A DNA stretch of 29,576 nucleotides from a virus: IMG/VR virus record IMGVR_UViG_3300025617_000079, positions 1-29,576 of that record; one strand, written 5' to 3'. The first letter of the stretch is position 1. Every line of letters begins with the position of its first letter. A program made the translations under genes and the position numbers. Below, in pieces: positions 3,199-13,916 of the stretch. The notes beneath the pieces were generated by a model, which ran no database searches, was not told the DNA's origin, and saw only the letters and a list, made by a program, of their open reading frames with translations.

Positions 3199-3271
3199 TG
3201 GCCTATAGCTCAATTGGCAGAGCAGAGAGCTGTTAACTCTAAGGTTCCTGGTTCGAGTCCAGGTAGGCCAG
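3199..3271 (+). tRNA. tRNA-Asn (GTT)
   Basis: Cloverleaf with acceptor TGGCCTA/TAGGCCA, D-arm GCTC/GAGC, anticodon loop CTGTTAA and T-loop TTCGAGT. Discriminator G fits Asn. No encoded CCA. The outer anticodon-stem pair looks mismatched (G-A). First of five tandem tRNAs. Confidence 0.95.
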
Positions 3272-3288
3272 CTGATAATTTAATATTT

Positions 3289-3359
3289 GCGAATATAGTT
3301 TAATGGTAAAACTTAACCTTGCCAAGGTTATGACGCGGGTTCGATTCCCGCTATTCGCT
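3289..3359 (+). tRNA. tRNA-Gly (GCC)
   Basis: Acceptor GCGAATA/TATTCGC, anticodon loop TTGCCAA on a TAACC/GGTTA stem, T-loop TTCGATT, discriminator T. No encoded CCA. Confidence 0.95.
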
Positions 3360-3360
3360 C

Positions 3361-3434
3361 GGCCCTATAGCTCAGTTGGTTAGAGTGCCGCCCTGTCACG
3401 GCGGAGGTCGCCAGTTCAAGTCTGGTTAGGGTCG
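3361..3434 (+). tRNA. tRNA-Asp (GTC)
   Basis: Acceptor GGCCCTA/TAGGGTC, anticodon loop CTGTCAC on a CCGCC/GGCGG stem, T-loop TTCAAGT, discriminator G. It lies 1 nt after tRNA-Gly and 1 nt before tRNA-Thr, which implies one processed precursor. Confidence 0.95.
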
Positions 3435-3435
3435 C

Positions 3436-3509
3436 GCCTCCTTAGCTCAGTTGGCCAGAGCACCGCTCTTGTAAAGCGGGGGTCGTCAGTTCGAATCTGA
3501 CAGGAGGCC
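3436..3509 (+). tRNA. tRNA-Thr (TGT)
   Basis: Acceptor GCCTCCT/AGGAGGC, anticodon loop CTTGTAA on a CCGCT/AGCGG stem, T-loop TTCGAAT. The TGT anticodon reads ACA, a codon common in these AT-rich genes. No encoded CCA. Confidence 0.95.
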
Positions 3510-3512
3510 CGA

Positions 3513-3585
3513 GCCTCTGTAGCTCAGGGGACAGAGCATCGGACTTCTAATCCGTGTGTCGTAGGTTCGAATCCTACCAGGGGTA
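3513..3585 (+). tRNA. tRNA-Arg (TCT)
   Basis: Acceptor GCCTCTG/CAGGGGT (two G-U pairs), anticodon loop CTTCTAA giving TCT, T-stem GTAGG/CCTAC, discriminator A. It reads AGA, which is frequent in the phage genes here and usually rare in actinobacteria. Confidence 0.93.
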
Positions 3586-3603
3586 CAAATGAAAAGGAAA
3601 AAT

Positions 3604-4608: not shown

Positions 4609-4971
4609 ATGAAATACTGGGCAAAGCTCGATGAAGACGACATTGTCGTTGAAGTTATTAATGAAACTGGACTAGAGGATCTAGAAGCACCAGAGGGACA
4701 ACAGGCTTCTGTAGCCAGAAACACCCCCCTGGGATTAACCACTACTCAAAAGCAGGGTCTTGTGCGATGCTTCTCTCCTGGCGACGGGCCAGCAGGTTCT
4801 TACGCTGCACCAGGATTCAAGTATGACCGCGACCTTAGGGGGTTCGTCCCACCACAGCCTGAGCCTTCAGATGTTTTTGACAAGAAAAGTTTTGAATGGG
4901 TTCCGCCAAAGCCCGACGAAGAGAATGACTATGTCTGGGATAACGAATCGGGAGCCTGGGTCGGAGCCTAG
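4609..4971 (+). CDS. Trp-rich tail-associated protein, copy 1
   Basis: A 120-aa protein similar to the product of 7457-7963: same opening (YxxLDExxxVVxVI), same centre (GxxYDxxLxxFxxPQPxPS) and the same Trp motif (YVWDNESGAWV here, YNWDEEAGNWV there). Proteins of this make-up occur in phage tail-fibre or virion-accessory regions; the function is not established. It has one terminal Trp motif whereas the second copy has three. It is followed by an M23-like gene, as is copy 2, so it is half of a duplicated module. Confidence 0.75.
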   Translation: MKYWAKLDEDDIVVEVINETGLEDLEAPEGQQASVARNTPLGLTTTQKQGLVRCFSPGDGPAGSYAAPGFKYDRDLRGFVPPQPEPSDVFDKKSFEWVPPKPDEENDYVWDNESGAWVGA

Positions 4972-6546: not shown

Positions 6547-7457
6547 TGGCTAGAATTTTTCCAGCACCCAGTAGCGGTGGTGGATCAGTGCAAACAAAAT
6601 TTACTGTCCACGCTATGGTTGTTGCTGGTGGCGGTAGCCCCGCTCGTAGCGGTTCGTGGTATTCGTCTGGCGGGGGTGCTGGTGGCTTCATTGAACAGTC
6701 TTTGTCCCTTGAAAGTGGAGAGTACACGGTGACGGTTGGTGCAGGTGGCGCGGCTGGTTCTGGCACTTATTCCAGTGGCAACGATGGAAGCGACTCTGTT
6801 TTTGCAACGCTTACCGCTAATGGTGGTGGGGCTAGCGGTTCGGCTGGCAACCCTGGCGGTCTTGGCAACACTGGCGGTTCGGCTGGTGGCTCTGGCTACA
6901 ATCAAGGTGGTGAACGCGCTTCTGATGGTACGGGGCAGGGCTGTAACGGTGGTCGAGGGTACAACGGTAGTGCTTTGACTGGCGGTGGCGGGGGTGCTAG
7001 CGAAGGTGGAAACGACAGAGATATCTCTTGGCACGGTGTAGGCGGTCACGGTATGCCTACAAGGATTGTTAGCACTTCTACGGCTACAAGCAAGTCCGTA
7101 GGCGAAGTCGCTACTTACGGCCCAATCGGGGTCAATCAGGTTTGGTTTGCTGGTGGTGGCGGTGGGACCATTGACAGTTCTTCCAGTGTTCGTCAGGGCG
7201 GTCTAGGCGGTGGCGGTAATGGTTCCCGTAGCGGAGGCACCCCAGGAAGCGGCGTGGCAAATACGGGCGGCGGCGGTGGTGGATGCTGGACTTACCAAGC
7301 AGGGATCACTGGCGGGTCTGGGATAGTTATTATTCGATTGTCTACGGATGTTTCCTTAACAGTTGGAGCGGGTTTGACCTATGAAACAGACACTTCTGAA
7401 ACTAATTCAATCGCTTATATATTTAAAGCAGGAACAGGGACGGTGACTTTAGGATAA
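6546..7457 (+). CDS. Glycine-rich tail/adhesin-like protein
   Basis: A 303-aa protein in which residues about 25-260 are dominated by Gly-rich runs (GGGGGAS, GGSAGGSG, GGGGGG) between short beta segments, ending GGSGIVIIRLSTD and a beta-rich tail. This matches the glycine-rich domain type found in phage receptor-binding adhesins, where Gly-rich strands pack as polyglycine II sheets (as in T2/S16 gp38). GTG start overlaps the previous stop; its stop overlaps the next ATG (TAATG). The GGY-rich codons raise the local GC above that of neighbours. Confidence 0.8.
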   Translation: MARIFPAPSSGGGSVQTKFTVHAMVVAGGGSPARSGSWYSSGGGAGGFIEQSLSLESGEYTVTVGAGGAAGSGTYSSGNDGSDSVFATLTANGGGASGSAGNPGGLGNTGGSAGGSGYNQGGERASDGTGQGCNGGRGYNGSALTGGGGGASEGGNDRDISWHGVGGHGMPTRIVSTSTATSKSVGEVATYGPIGVNQVWFAGGGGGTIDSSSSVRQGGLGGGGNGSRSGGTPGSGVANTGGGGGGCWTYQAGITGGSGIVIIRLSTDVSLTVGAGLTYETDTSETNSIAYIFKAGTGTVTLG

Positions 7458-7963
7458 TGGCACACTACGCTTTACTAGACGAAAACAATGTTGTCGTGCA
7501 GGTTATTGCTGGACGCAATGAAACTGAGTCCGTAGACGGCATCACAGACTGGGAAGCCCACTACGCAGAGGTCACTGGGATGAAATGCAAACGAACTTCT
7601 CGAAATACTGTGGACGGGGTTCACTTAGATGGTGGTGTTGCGTTCCGTGGGAATATGGCAGCTAAGGGTTACACTTACGATGAAAACTTAGACGCTTTCA
7701 TAGCCCCCCAGCCCTATCCTTCTTGGACACTTGACACCACGACTTTCACCTGGGAGCCACCTGTAGCCGAAATGCCTGGTCAATACAACTGGGATGAGGA
7801 AGCTGGCAACTGGGTTCAGGCACCAGCACCGTTCCCGTCTTGGGTTTGGAATGAAGAGACCGCTGAGTGGGAGGCACCGATTCCGTTTCCTCAAAACGCT
7901 ACTAGTCTAAAAGTTTGGGATGAGGACGCTGGTAGTTGGGTAGAAGCACAAGACAACTCTTAA
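7457..7963 (+). CDS. Trp-rich tail-associated protein, copy 2
   Basis: A 168-aa longer paralogue of the 4609 product. After the shared opening (MAHYALLDENNVVVQVIAG) and centre (GYTYDENLDAFIAPQPYPSW) it has three tandem Trp units: YNWDEEAGNWV, WVWNEETAEWE and VWDEDAGSWVE, separated by PFPSW-type linkers. This looks like an expanded C-terminal repeat. It overlaps the adhesin-like gene by one base and precedes the intact M23 gene, the same order as copy 1. Confidence 0.8.
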   Translation: MAHYALLDENNVVVQVIAGRNETESVDGITDWEAHYAEVTGMKCKRTSRNTVDGVHLDGGVAFRGNMAAKGYTYDENLDAFIAPQPYPSWTLDTTTFTWEPPVAEMPGQYNWDEEAGNWVQAPAPFPSWVWNEETAEWEAPIPFPQNATSLKVWDEDAGSWVEAQDNS

Positions 7964-11576: not shown

Positions 11577-11861
11577 ATGAATAAGCATGAATGGAAAGAC
11601 GAAGCAGATTGTAAGGGCTACGACACTAACCTATTCTTTGACAAATATGAGGACGATCTTTCTCTAAGAAAAGCTGTAGATAGTGTGTGTGCTGGATGCC
11701 CAGTTGCTAAGCAGTGCTTTGCTGTCGGAGTATCCCAAAAAGAATGGGGTGTCTGGGGCGGTATCTATCTAGAAAATGGCAAGATATCTAGAGAGTTTAA
11801 CAGACACAGAAGTAAGCCAGACTGGGCAGAGACTTGGCAATACTTAACGATGGATAAGTGA
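11577..11861 (+). CDS. whiB: WhiB-family iron-sulfur transcription factor
   Basis: A 94-aa member of the actinobacteria-specific WhiB family, which carries a [4Fe-4S] cluster and acts with the host sigma factor. The four ligands are C12, C38, C41 and C47 (C-X25-C-X2-C-X5-C), followed by the GVWGG turn (EWGVWGGIYLENG) and a basic tail (REFNRHRSKPDW). Phage WhiB proteins (for example TM4 WhiBTM4) can interfere with host WhiB regulators; that role is plausible here but not shown. Its presence is the best evidence for an actinobacterial host. Confidence 0.93.
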   Translation: MNKHEWKDEADCKGYDTNLFFDKYEDDLSLRKAVDSVCAGCPVAKQCFAVGVSQKEWGVWGGIYLENGKISREFNRHRSKPDWAETWQYLTMDK

Positions 11862-11865
11862 TAAT

Positions 11866-13398
11866 ATGAATAGTAATAAGTTTGTAATTGTAGGGGGAGG
11901 CACCGCTGGGTGGCTGACTGCACTTATTTTAAGAAAATCGTTCCCACTGGCCTCTATTGATCTAGTAGAAAGCTCTCAGATTGGAATCTTGGGAGCGGGA
12001 GAGGGCTCAACCCCACATTTCTTACAGGCTTTAGAGTATGCTGATATTAACTTAAAAGATCTAATCACTAACACTTCTTGTACCATCAAAAATGGTATTC
12101 TGTTTGATAATTGGAGCAAGAACAAAGAGCCATACATCCATGGCTTTGGGGTCAACGACGCTAGGTTTGGACAAGATGCTTTTAACAGCAAGTTTTCAGA
12201 GTTTGAGTTTACCCCTGCTCCGATCTTAGAATACTTGGCTGAGCGGAACGAGCTTTCTGAAAAAGATATTGGTTTTCTAACTAACCTTAGTTTAAAAAAT
12301 AAAACATTGTTTAGAAAAGAAAATGATCAGTACCATCAAAAAGGAATCTATGCCGTACACTTTGACGCTAGATCTTTGGCAGAGTACATGGCTAAGGTTG
12401 CCCGTGAGCGTGACGTTAAACGAATTGAGGGCAAGGTCCAAGACATTCATCGTAATGAAAGTGGTAACATTACCCATCTTGTTTTAGATAATGGCAGAGA
12501 GGTTCGCGGACAGTTCTTCTTTGACTGCACTGGATTTGCCAGACTTATTATTGGCAAACTCTTTGAGTCGGAGTGGGTAAGCTTTAAGGATAGCCTTCCA
12601 GCTAAAAGAGCTATGCCATTCTTCTTAGACCCAGACGAACACAGCGTTCAGCCATATACACATGCCAAAGCAATGGACCGTGGGTGGATCTGGAAAATTC
12701 CTCTGCAGCACAGATACGGATGCGGTTATGTATATGACCCAGATCAAATTTCTGACGATGAGGTAAAGCAAGAGATTGATGAGTTTGCTGGCAAAGGGGT
12801 TGAGATCCCAACCATGTTTAACTTTGACCCTGGTTACTACAAGAAGGTATGGATTAAAAACTGTCTAGCTCTTGGTCTGTCCAATGGCTTTGTGGAGCCA
12901 TTAGAAGCAACATCTCTGATGCAATTAATCTTTGCATTACAAACATTCTTATCTCAAAGGCACAAAGTCTTTAGCGATGATGATGTGTTTAAGGATAACT
13001 ACAACAGACAGATTGAAGAAGACCACAGAGACATTGAGGCCTTCATCTATCTTCACTACATGACTGATAAAGACAACAACGATTTCTGGTCTAACTTTAC
13101 CAGCAACTACAAAATGCCAGACAGGCTAGTATCAACTGTAGAAAGACTAAGGTATGGAATCCTAAACATGAGGGACAATACTGGAATTTTTGATATCAAT
13201 AGCCATCTTGTTGTTGGCAGGGGAAACGGACTCCTTCTTAAAGATAATGTAGAAGAAATCTATCAGGCCTCTATTAAAGATATGGGCATAGAGCCTTTTA
13301 TTCCAGAAATTATTAGAGATATAGACCATCAAACTGGCACCATGACGGATCATAAGCAGTTCTTAACTGACTTGGGAGGCACTGTTGGCAAAAGATAA
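11866..13398 (+). CDS. Flavin-dependent halogenase, tryptophan-halogenase family
   Basis: A 510-aa FAD enzyme. Motifs in order: dinucleotide-binding GGGTAGW (residues 10-16), AGEGSTPHF (44-52), the predicted catalytic lysine K75 in TIKNGILFDNW, substrate-side W274-I-W-K-I-P279 (the WxWxIP halogenase signature that blocks monooxygenase activity), and NGFVEPLEATSL (340-351) with the conserved glutamate. Reduced FAD, oxygen and halide would give a hypohalite held by K75. Relatives occur in marine cyanophages, including VirX1, reported to iodinate many substrates. No flavin reductase is seen in the window. Substrate unknown. The next gene overlaps its end. Confidence 0.92.
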   Translation: MNSNKFVIVGGGTAGWLTALILRKSFPLASIDLVESSQIGILGAGEGSTPHFLQALEYADINLKDLITNTSCTIKNGILFDNWSKNKEPYIHGFGVNDARFGQDAFNSKFSEFEFTPAPILEYLAERNELSEKDIGFLTNLSLKNKTLFRKENDQYHQKGIYAVHFDARSLAEYMAKVARERDVKRIEGKVQDIHRNESGNITHLVLDNGREVRGQFFFDCTGFARLIIGKLFESEWVSFKDSLPAKRAMPFFLDPDEHSVQPYTHAKAMDRGWIWKIPLQHRYGCGYVYDPDQISDDEVKQEIDEFAGKGVEIPTMFNFDPGYYKKVWIKNCLALGLSNGFVEPLEATSLMQLIFALQTFLSQRHKVFSDDDVFKDNYNRQIEEDHRDIEAFIYLHYMTDKDNNDFWSNFTSNYKMPDRLVSTVERLRYGILNMRDNTGIFDINSHLVVGRGNGLLLKDNVEEIYQASIKDMGIEPFIPEIIRDIDHQTGTMTDHKQFLTDLGGTVGKR

Positions 13399-13666
13399 CG
13401 AACAGCTCGAAGCTTTGTCCACAATGCTCCACAGGGAATATTGGGATAAGCCTAACACTATTGAGTTCTTTGCTTTTATGATTAAGCTAATAATCATTAT
13501 CCCTGGATTATTGTGGGGATACAATTGGTGGTGGCTTTATGCCTTGGCATTGGTGACCAGCGTAATGCTTATCTGGTCTTCCACAAAAAAGACGCTTCCC
13601 ACATTAATTATTTTTAACTTTGTGTGGATTTTTCTTTCAATCTTTGCTATTATTAAATACTACTAG
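13385..13666 (+). CDS. Three-helix membrane protein
   Basis: A 93-aa protein with TTG start overlapping the halogenase by 14 nt. After a charged N-terminus (AKDNEQLEALSTMLHREYWDKPNTIEF) come three close hydrophobic segments at about 30-43, 46-62 and 70-90. Translational coupling suggests co-expression with the halogenase; no family recognised. Confidence 0.72.
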   Translation: MAKDNEQLEALSTMLHREYWDKPNTIEFFAFMIKLIIIIPGLLWGYNWWWLYALALVTSVMLIWSSTKKTLPTLIIFNFVWIFLSIFAIIKYY

Positions 13667-13673
13667 GAGAAAT

Positions 13674-13916
13674 ATGTATACAAACGAAATGGCGAAAGCC
13701 TTTAGATCTTTAGACCACCACGCCCCTAAGGGCTTTAACGTGCAGCTCATTGACAACGAACACTTCTTGACCGTAAAAGCAGAAGAGTCCATGTTCATGA
13801 GGCTTGACGACTATGGCAAGAGAAAGGCTATAGAATATATGGTATTGGTTAAGAAGGCGTTGGAAGAGAATGGGGCCATAGTTCTTATAGTTAGAACTGG
13901 AGGGGAAGAGGTTTGA
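13674..13916 (+). CDS. Hypothetical small protein
   Basis: An 80-aa soluble protein (MYTNEMAKAFRSLDHHAPKGFNVQLIDNEHFLTVKAEE...). ATG 13674 follows AGGAG at 13665-13669, which sits on the previous stop. A longer in-frame reading from 13620 has no ribosome site. Overlaps the next gene. Function unknown. Confidence 0.75.
   Translation: MYTNEMAKAFRSLDHHAPKGFNVQLIDNEHFLTVKAEESMFMRLDDYGKRKAIEYMVLVKKALEENGAIVLIVRTGGEEV

Follow-up and report, generated by a model that had tools for sequence, protein, structure and literature searches.

What does a halogenase do for a phage, and on what does it act? Halogenases of cyanophages came to light more than ten years ago, yet to our knowledge neither their native substrate nor any advantage to the phage has been established. 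We analysed a linear IMG/VR virus record of 29,576 bases, probably a fragment (the window), in which a flavin-dependent halogenase (FDH) gene occupies positions 11866–13398 of the plus strand. The FDH itself belongs to a known kind of enzyme, which puts chlorine, bromine or iodine on aromatic molecules. What is new is the two-gene module that it forms with a small membrane protein, which is undescribed in the literature and databases we searched.

Gene content supports an actinophage origin for the window. WhiB is a marker of actinophages (PMC6802176, PMC10202952). The window's WhiB-like transcription factor (11577–11861, plus strand; PF02467, 1.3e-13), encoded directly before the halogenase, retains the four conserved Fe-S cysteines, C12, C38, C41 and C47. 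Among IMG/VR phage records with FDH relatives, 28 of 40 and 7 of 40 also carry WhiB, as do 33 of the 50 records that hold the membrane protein (one match below the family cut-off). The actinophage context proposed in a preliminary description of the locus agrees with this conserved WhiB and its presence in FDH-bearing relatives, the host being read from gene content alone. The window also encodes five tRNAs (3199–3586) and a phage tmRNA (17936–18179, minus strand) with the predicted tag ANKNQFALAA.

Residues and fold both indicate a catalytically intact member of the tryptophan-halogenase superfamily. The 510-residue product, read from an ATG, matches Pfam Trp_halogenase (PF04820) at 1.2e-101 over residues 5–457, with 341 bits against a cut-off of 21, PHROG 2928 'tryptophan halogenase' at 1.6e-102, and FDHs in the PDB down to 5.9e-65. 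It carries the flavin motif GGGTAGW at 10–16, the putative catalytic lysine K75 and WIWKIP at 274–279, and alignment to SttH, AbeH and Th-Hal places the catalytic glutamate at E347, the second Glu of EPLEATS. Across an alignment of 52 relatives, G10, G12, G15, K75, W274, W276, P279, E344 and P345 are kept by all 52 and E347 by 51. The preliminary description had reported these signature residues as intact, naming loss of K75 or of the flavin site in an alignment as what would speak against a halogenase; every relative keeps both.

The predicted structure leads to the same family. An AlphaFold2 (AF2) model (mean pLDDT 93.5) superposes over residues 1–504 on PyrH and Xcc4156 (both Z 43.5), and on BrvH, PrnA, RebH, MibH (40.0) and VirX1 (37.1), with tryptophan-halogenase matches of Z 40–43.5 over about 480 residues. 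PyrH, Xcc4156, BrvH and RebH/PrnA share this fold and the catalytic Lys and Glu, but they are cellular enzymes, only 26–29% identical to the window FDH, and we know of no membrane partner for any of them. The peptide-Trp halogenases MibH and SrpI have the same fold too (MibH is 23% identical). The gene and its viral relatives are under purifying selection, with a median dN/dS of 0.087 over 101 pairs of close relatives. Because the signature residues are conserved, the fold is confident and dN/dS is low, an active halogenase is a sound expectation for this gene.

The window FDH belongs to a large viral clade. A viral scan with the single FDH sequence gave no match, and an eight-sequence alignment was too divergent as a query; an FDH alignment including Pelagibacter phage HTVC008M found 294 candidate IMG/VR stretches encoding FDH relatives, the best 80 of the 294 at 36–45% identity. 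The nearest kin among the matches listed are 43–45% identical. In a quick maximum-likelihood tree with SH-aLRT support only, the window FDH groups with FDHs of uncultured aquatic phages in one large viral clade, VirX1 with its kin in a second, and the cellular FDHs, mainly proteobacterial, in a third. Close kinship with VirX1 (PDB 6QGM; Cyanophage Syn10 CPUG_00131), which the preliminary description named as a viral relative, did not hold: although VirX1 is a viral FDH of solved structure, it is 29% identical to the window FDH and lies in a separate, well-supported clade (starred, 12 rows) across branches with 100* support.

Named phages contain similar enzymes in other settings. The best GenBank-phage match is HTVC008M; most others are cyanophages, and one is the lake actinophage DSL-LC01. 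The HTVC008M 'tryptophan halogenase' (KC465899, AGE60413) is 38.5–42% identical with motifs in common, but this phage is a marine pelagiphage whose FDH lies between a 2OG oxygenase and a terminase gene, without a membrane partner. Actinomycetia phage DSL-LC01, a freshwater actinophage, encodes an FDH (ORF137, OQ999401) two genes from whiB, but that FDH is 24% identical to ours and is followed by a glycosyltransferase, with no membrane partner. The halogenase and WhiB genes of DSL-LC01 were published without functional analysis (PMC10611076), in the only paper found in a literature search combining halogenase, whiB and phage. An FDH beside whiB in an actinophage is therefore already known from DSL-LC01 and not new.

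The FDH and membrane-protein genes together form a clean insertion. It spans 11862–13673 on the plus strand, from the whiB stop to the ATG of the next gene, and whiB is its left flank. Its right flank is g2, a small conserved protein (13674–13916, plus strand) that likely starts at ATG 13674 rather than TTG 13620. We found the nearest phage relatives by a scan with this lineage's WhiB. In FDH-less relatives g2 directly follows whiB, with 66–70% identity in the closest, and empty sites were found in four loci (L248, L252, L257, L299). L248 (WhiB 86%, ThyX 81%, C1 peptidase 80% identical to the window) and L252 (NrdA and NrdB 92%) keep the gene order of the window, run straight from whiB into the 13674 gene, and are missing exactly the FDH and the membrane protein. 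Backbone relatives thus stand at 80–90%, yet the FDH finds no kin that close among the matches listed. The window WhiB is up to 86% identical to those of FDH-less relatives versus 67–69% for FDH-bearing ones.

The pair is an accessory cassette, its two genes moving together. Among 80 WhiB loci of this lineage, 78 have neither gene, two have both and none has one alone; FDH occurs in two of the 49 whole records of this set. Those two (L300, L323) carry the pair at another site, between g16 and the nuclease gene. In L038 the partner lies between FDH and a glycosyltransferase, the gene that directly follows FDH in DSL-LC01 and L039. The clean empty site, joint presence and absence, the other sites and the L038 placement together lead to this conclusion.

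The association extends well beyond the window. An alignment search of IMG/VR with the membrane protein gave at least 580 coding matches, of which the best 80 were read, covering 79 new loci. The search seeds came from FDH loci, and the loci were found by the membrane protein alone; 67 of the 79 have an FDH no more than 400 bp away. Among the other 12, one has an FDH further off, two offer too little DNA and nine have none nearby; the three longest contigs of those nine (34–108 kb) carry an FDH elsewhere. All 78 full-length pairs are on one strand, 72 with FDH first, and about 73 overlap stop to start. Most lie in one broad group of related phages: by single linkage, 73 of 78 merge at two shared neighbours, and nine groups form at three. 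The partner occurs with two FDH lineages about 26–30% identical across starred branches, one of them the VirX1 clade, in which some uncultured phage FDHs carry it. The earlier statement that the halogenase is coupled to a three-helix membrane protein, made from adjacency in one genome, is thus borne out by these loci and by joint presence and absence in the phage lineage, and widens to a conserved, mobile two-gene unit.

The partner is not universal. On the tree, 43 of 80 viral FDHs have no partner nearby, so an FDH of this superfamily needs none in general. None of the best 80 cellular matches, the top ones proteobacterial at 30–36% identity, has the membrane protein nearby, and hence no cellular donor was found. 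Separately, in pairs such as L175 and L182 synonymous divergence is about 1.1 in FDH and about 0.1 in the adjoining membrane-protein gene, as if the partner gene (or the right flank) recombined separately from FDH.

The partner is a small protein built of predicted membrane helices. Its gene (13385–13666, plus strand; 93 aa) starts at TTG and overlaps the FDH stop by 14 bp. The AF2 model (pLDDT 80.7) has a short N-terminal helix (3–13) and three long hydrophobic helices (22–44, 49–69, 72–92). The window protein has no significant match in Pfam, PHROGs or NCBIfam, the best family match among 52 members is SdpI at 0.0077, in two of them, and a search of GenBank phages gave none at E up to 1. In fold searches it matched nothing beyond generic helical bundles (Z 8.4 at most), from which no function follows.

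Conservation points to a specific role. Nineteen positions are invariant in the 52 members, including Y19, W20, N24, E27, K34, W49, S59, S66, K69, N78 and W81, and W50 and W64 are kept in 51. Invariance of the polar residues E27, K34, S59, S66, K69 and N78 together with W20, W49 and W81 argues for a specific function rather than generic hydrophobic filler. The median dN/dS is 0.107. The partner-gene tree is too short to resolve whether VirX1-type partners form one clade.

We favour, with modest confidence, a mobile module in which an intact FDH is fed by a host reductase and docked at the host membrane by its dedicated partner. No flavin reductase appeared among the Pfam-scanned genes of the 29.6-kb linear record, which is probably a fragment, and PF01613 was absent from all 37 FDH-bearing phage records searched, whereas the same search was positive in 13 of 14 control genomes. 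This matches the preliminary description, in which no phage flavin reductase was seen. FADH2 would accordingly come from a host flavin reductase. FDHs as a family form a flavin hydroperoxide that oxidises halide to HOX, which a lysine passes on. The phage enzyme would do the same, K75 (with E347) handing HOX to an aromatic carbon of the substrate.

The membrane part of this reading would follow from the gene pair. Because the genes are paired, the enzyme and the membrane protein, translated from overlapping genes, would act together, and we infer docking on the cytoplasmic face of the host membrane from this pairing, as we do the partner's role, the activity and the substrate. The docking surface may be the invariant juxtamembrane patch Y19-W20-x3-N24-x2-E27. 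A docked enzyme, with the partner as its tether, would therefore be expected to act on a membrane-associated target or a ribosomally made protein rather than on free tryptophan.

Alternatively, the FDH could be a stand-alone auxiliary metabolic enzyme that halogenates a free small aromatic such as tryptophan, indole or a host secondary metabolite, with the membrane protein serving an unrelated purpose such as product export or cell protection. Its fold and core are closest to the free-substrate FDHs PyrH, Xcc4156 and BrvH, and many viral FDHs have no membrane partner nearby. Such independence sits poorly with a pair that is gained and lost jointly and with a partner shared by two distant FDH lineages. 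The C-terminal part of known tryptophan halogenases helps hold the amino acid, yet HMMER alignments to PrnA, RebH and SttH end near residue 432, before this part, while the fold itself extends to 504. We consider this reading unlikely.

Related phages provide a candidate class of ribosomal substrate. In marine and lake phages whose FDHs belong to the window FDH's clade (L066, L071, L076, L078, L084–L088), the FDH is part of a fixed RiPP-like cassette: a 2OG oxygenase, a Cys/Asn-rich protein, a radical-SAM/SPASM enzyme, an unknown protein, the FDH and another 2OG oxygenase. Examples lie at L066:1564-7527, L078:2629-8758 and L084:2791-8177, and also in L071, L076, L088 and L328–L371. The Cys/Asn-rich protein begins MTLPxSGxIS, a start that also opens a glycine-rich tail-like protein (L047 4545-5492), and the radical-SAM/SPASM enzyme resembles peptide maturases (PapB model, 1.3e-24, below its cut-off). 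A search with this enzyme led to 43 loci where both the peptide and the presence or absence of FDH could be determined. Where FDH is present, 27 of 31 peptides have Trp as their last residue; where it is absent, none of 12 does (Fisher 1e-7). Counting distinct peptide tails only, the figures are 20 of 23 and 0 of 10. On the radical-SAM tree, FDH and terminal Trp show two concordant and no discordant independent changes (p 0.5), and since only two such changes bear on the link, shared ancestry could explain it.

Known peptide halogenases make this a concrete idea. MibH and SrpI act on ribosomal peptides encoded beside them, and the brominase SrpI modifies the C-terminal Trp of its peptide (PMC10858898); by analogy, FDHs of the related phages may halogenate the cassette peptides. 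The partner of MibH or SrpI is a precursor peptide, whereas that of the window FDH is a three-helix membrane protein. A rather improbable wider version would make the phage FDHs of this clade dedicated halogenases of ribosomal proteins. Those of actinophages would act on the partner membrane protein or on a membrane complex that it forms, and those of the related marine and lake phages on a Cys-rich peptide that has a virion-type leader and is processed by the radical-SAM enzyme, at its C-terminal Trp. If true, viruses would make halogenated proteins of their own.

A narrower alternative takes the membrane protein as the substrate, with FDH halogenating its invariant cytoplasm-facing Y19-W20 as peptide halogenases do their precursor peptide. 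In its favour are a small partner encoded next to the FDH, roughly 8 Trp per 94 residues in that partner (W20, W49 and W81 in 52 of 52), the Trp-ending Cys-rich peptides beside sister viral FDHs and the fold match to MibH (Z 40). But interfacial Trp is usual in membrane proteins, another kind of Trp-rich small membrane protein also occurs in these phages, and this Trp-richness is matched by 9% of 180 other small multi-helix ORFs; those we looked at form one family that may resemble PnuC. At about 60%, the partner is also better conserved than the enzyme at about 40%, which is unusual for a precursor peptide, and the link between FDH and terminal Trp comes down to the two changes above. This makes partner halogenation a distinctly long shot.

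A role for the membrane protein as carrier or channel, supplying halide to the FDH in low-halide freshwater hosts, is very improbable: Lys34 and Glu27 are invariant within the first long helix, as are Ser59 and Asn78 in others, but the protein has no similarity to known channel or transporter families, and the FDHs we know of work without a dedicated halide carrier. Loss of halogenation, in a flavin monooxygenase or a decayed gene, is scarcely credible. In its favour, A348 and S350 stand where the classical chloride/flavin loop, E-S-T-G, has Ser and Gly. Against it, A-T-S is the form usually found among the viral enzymes of this clade, the solved FDH 9luq has E-S-T-S, K75 and WxWxIP are kept in 52 of 52, dN/dS is low as given above, and the next fold families are other FDHs (CndH and Bmp2, Z about 25).

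The favoured reading, a membrane-docked halogenase, would give phage halogenation a place in the cell. Pairing in the window and in dozens of related viruses suggests that the FDH works at the cell membrane, and a partner gained and lost with FDH, and shared by two distant FDH lineages, offers a way to find the enzyme's site of action and its target. The two proteins form a system suited to expression and assay, and the cassette peptides, which mostly end in Trp when an FDH gene is present, offer a specific substrate prediction for the related phage FDHs. Since freshwater actinobacteria rank with the most abundant bacteria of lakes, the module may be common.

Other genes of the window drew attention as well. 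Between 4609 and 7963 lie genes for two Trp-rich repeat proteins (phrog_7759), for a glycine-rich tail-like protein and for a second peptidase of the M23 type; the equivalent stretch of L248, L252 and L257, the closest relatives without FDH, showed none of them. A phrog_7759 protein is directly upstream of FDH in L047 and L083. The phrog_7759 Trp-rich tail protein (4609–4971, 7457–7963) was considered as a substrate of the halogenase and rejected as a general partner, with three of 32 FDH-less records carrying it versus three of 33 FDH-bearing ones.

Phage FDH loci show further recurrent features. A family related to DUF6065 (phrog_7084) is a repeated neighbour of phage FDHs, for example at L042:4569-5285, L005:4577-5365, L074:3314-4839 and L235:4308-5066, among others; two of its eight members match PF19541, the better one at 7e-35. 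The family lies directly downstream of VirX1 in Cyanophage Syn10 and also occurs in FDH loci that have no membrane protein. In seven loci (L057, L063, L068, L070, L077, L082, L083) at least two FDH genes lie near one another with 2OG oxygenases between them, and one locus may combine FDHs about 30–35% identical to the window's with others at about 40%. Finally, a 'DNA endonuclease V' near the FDH of Synechococcus phage S-H38 (MW117965; L004:2395-3027) is likely misannotated, as it weakly matches 2OG-Fe(II) oxygenase/DUF6445 profiles and not endonuclease V.
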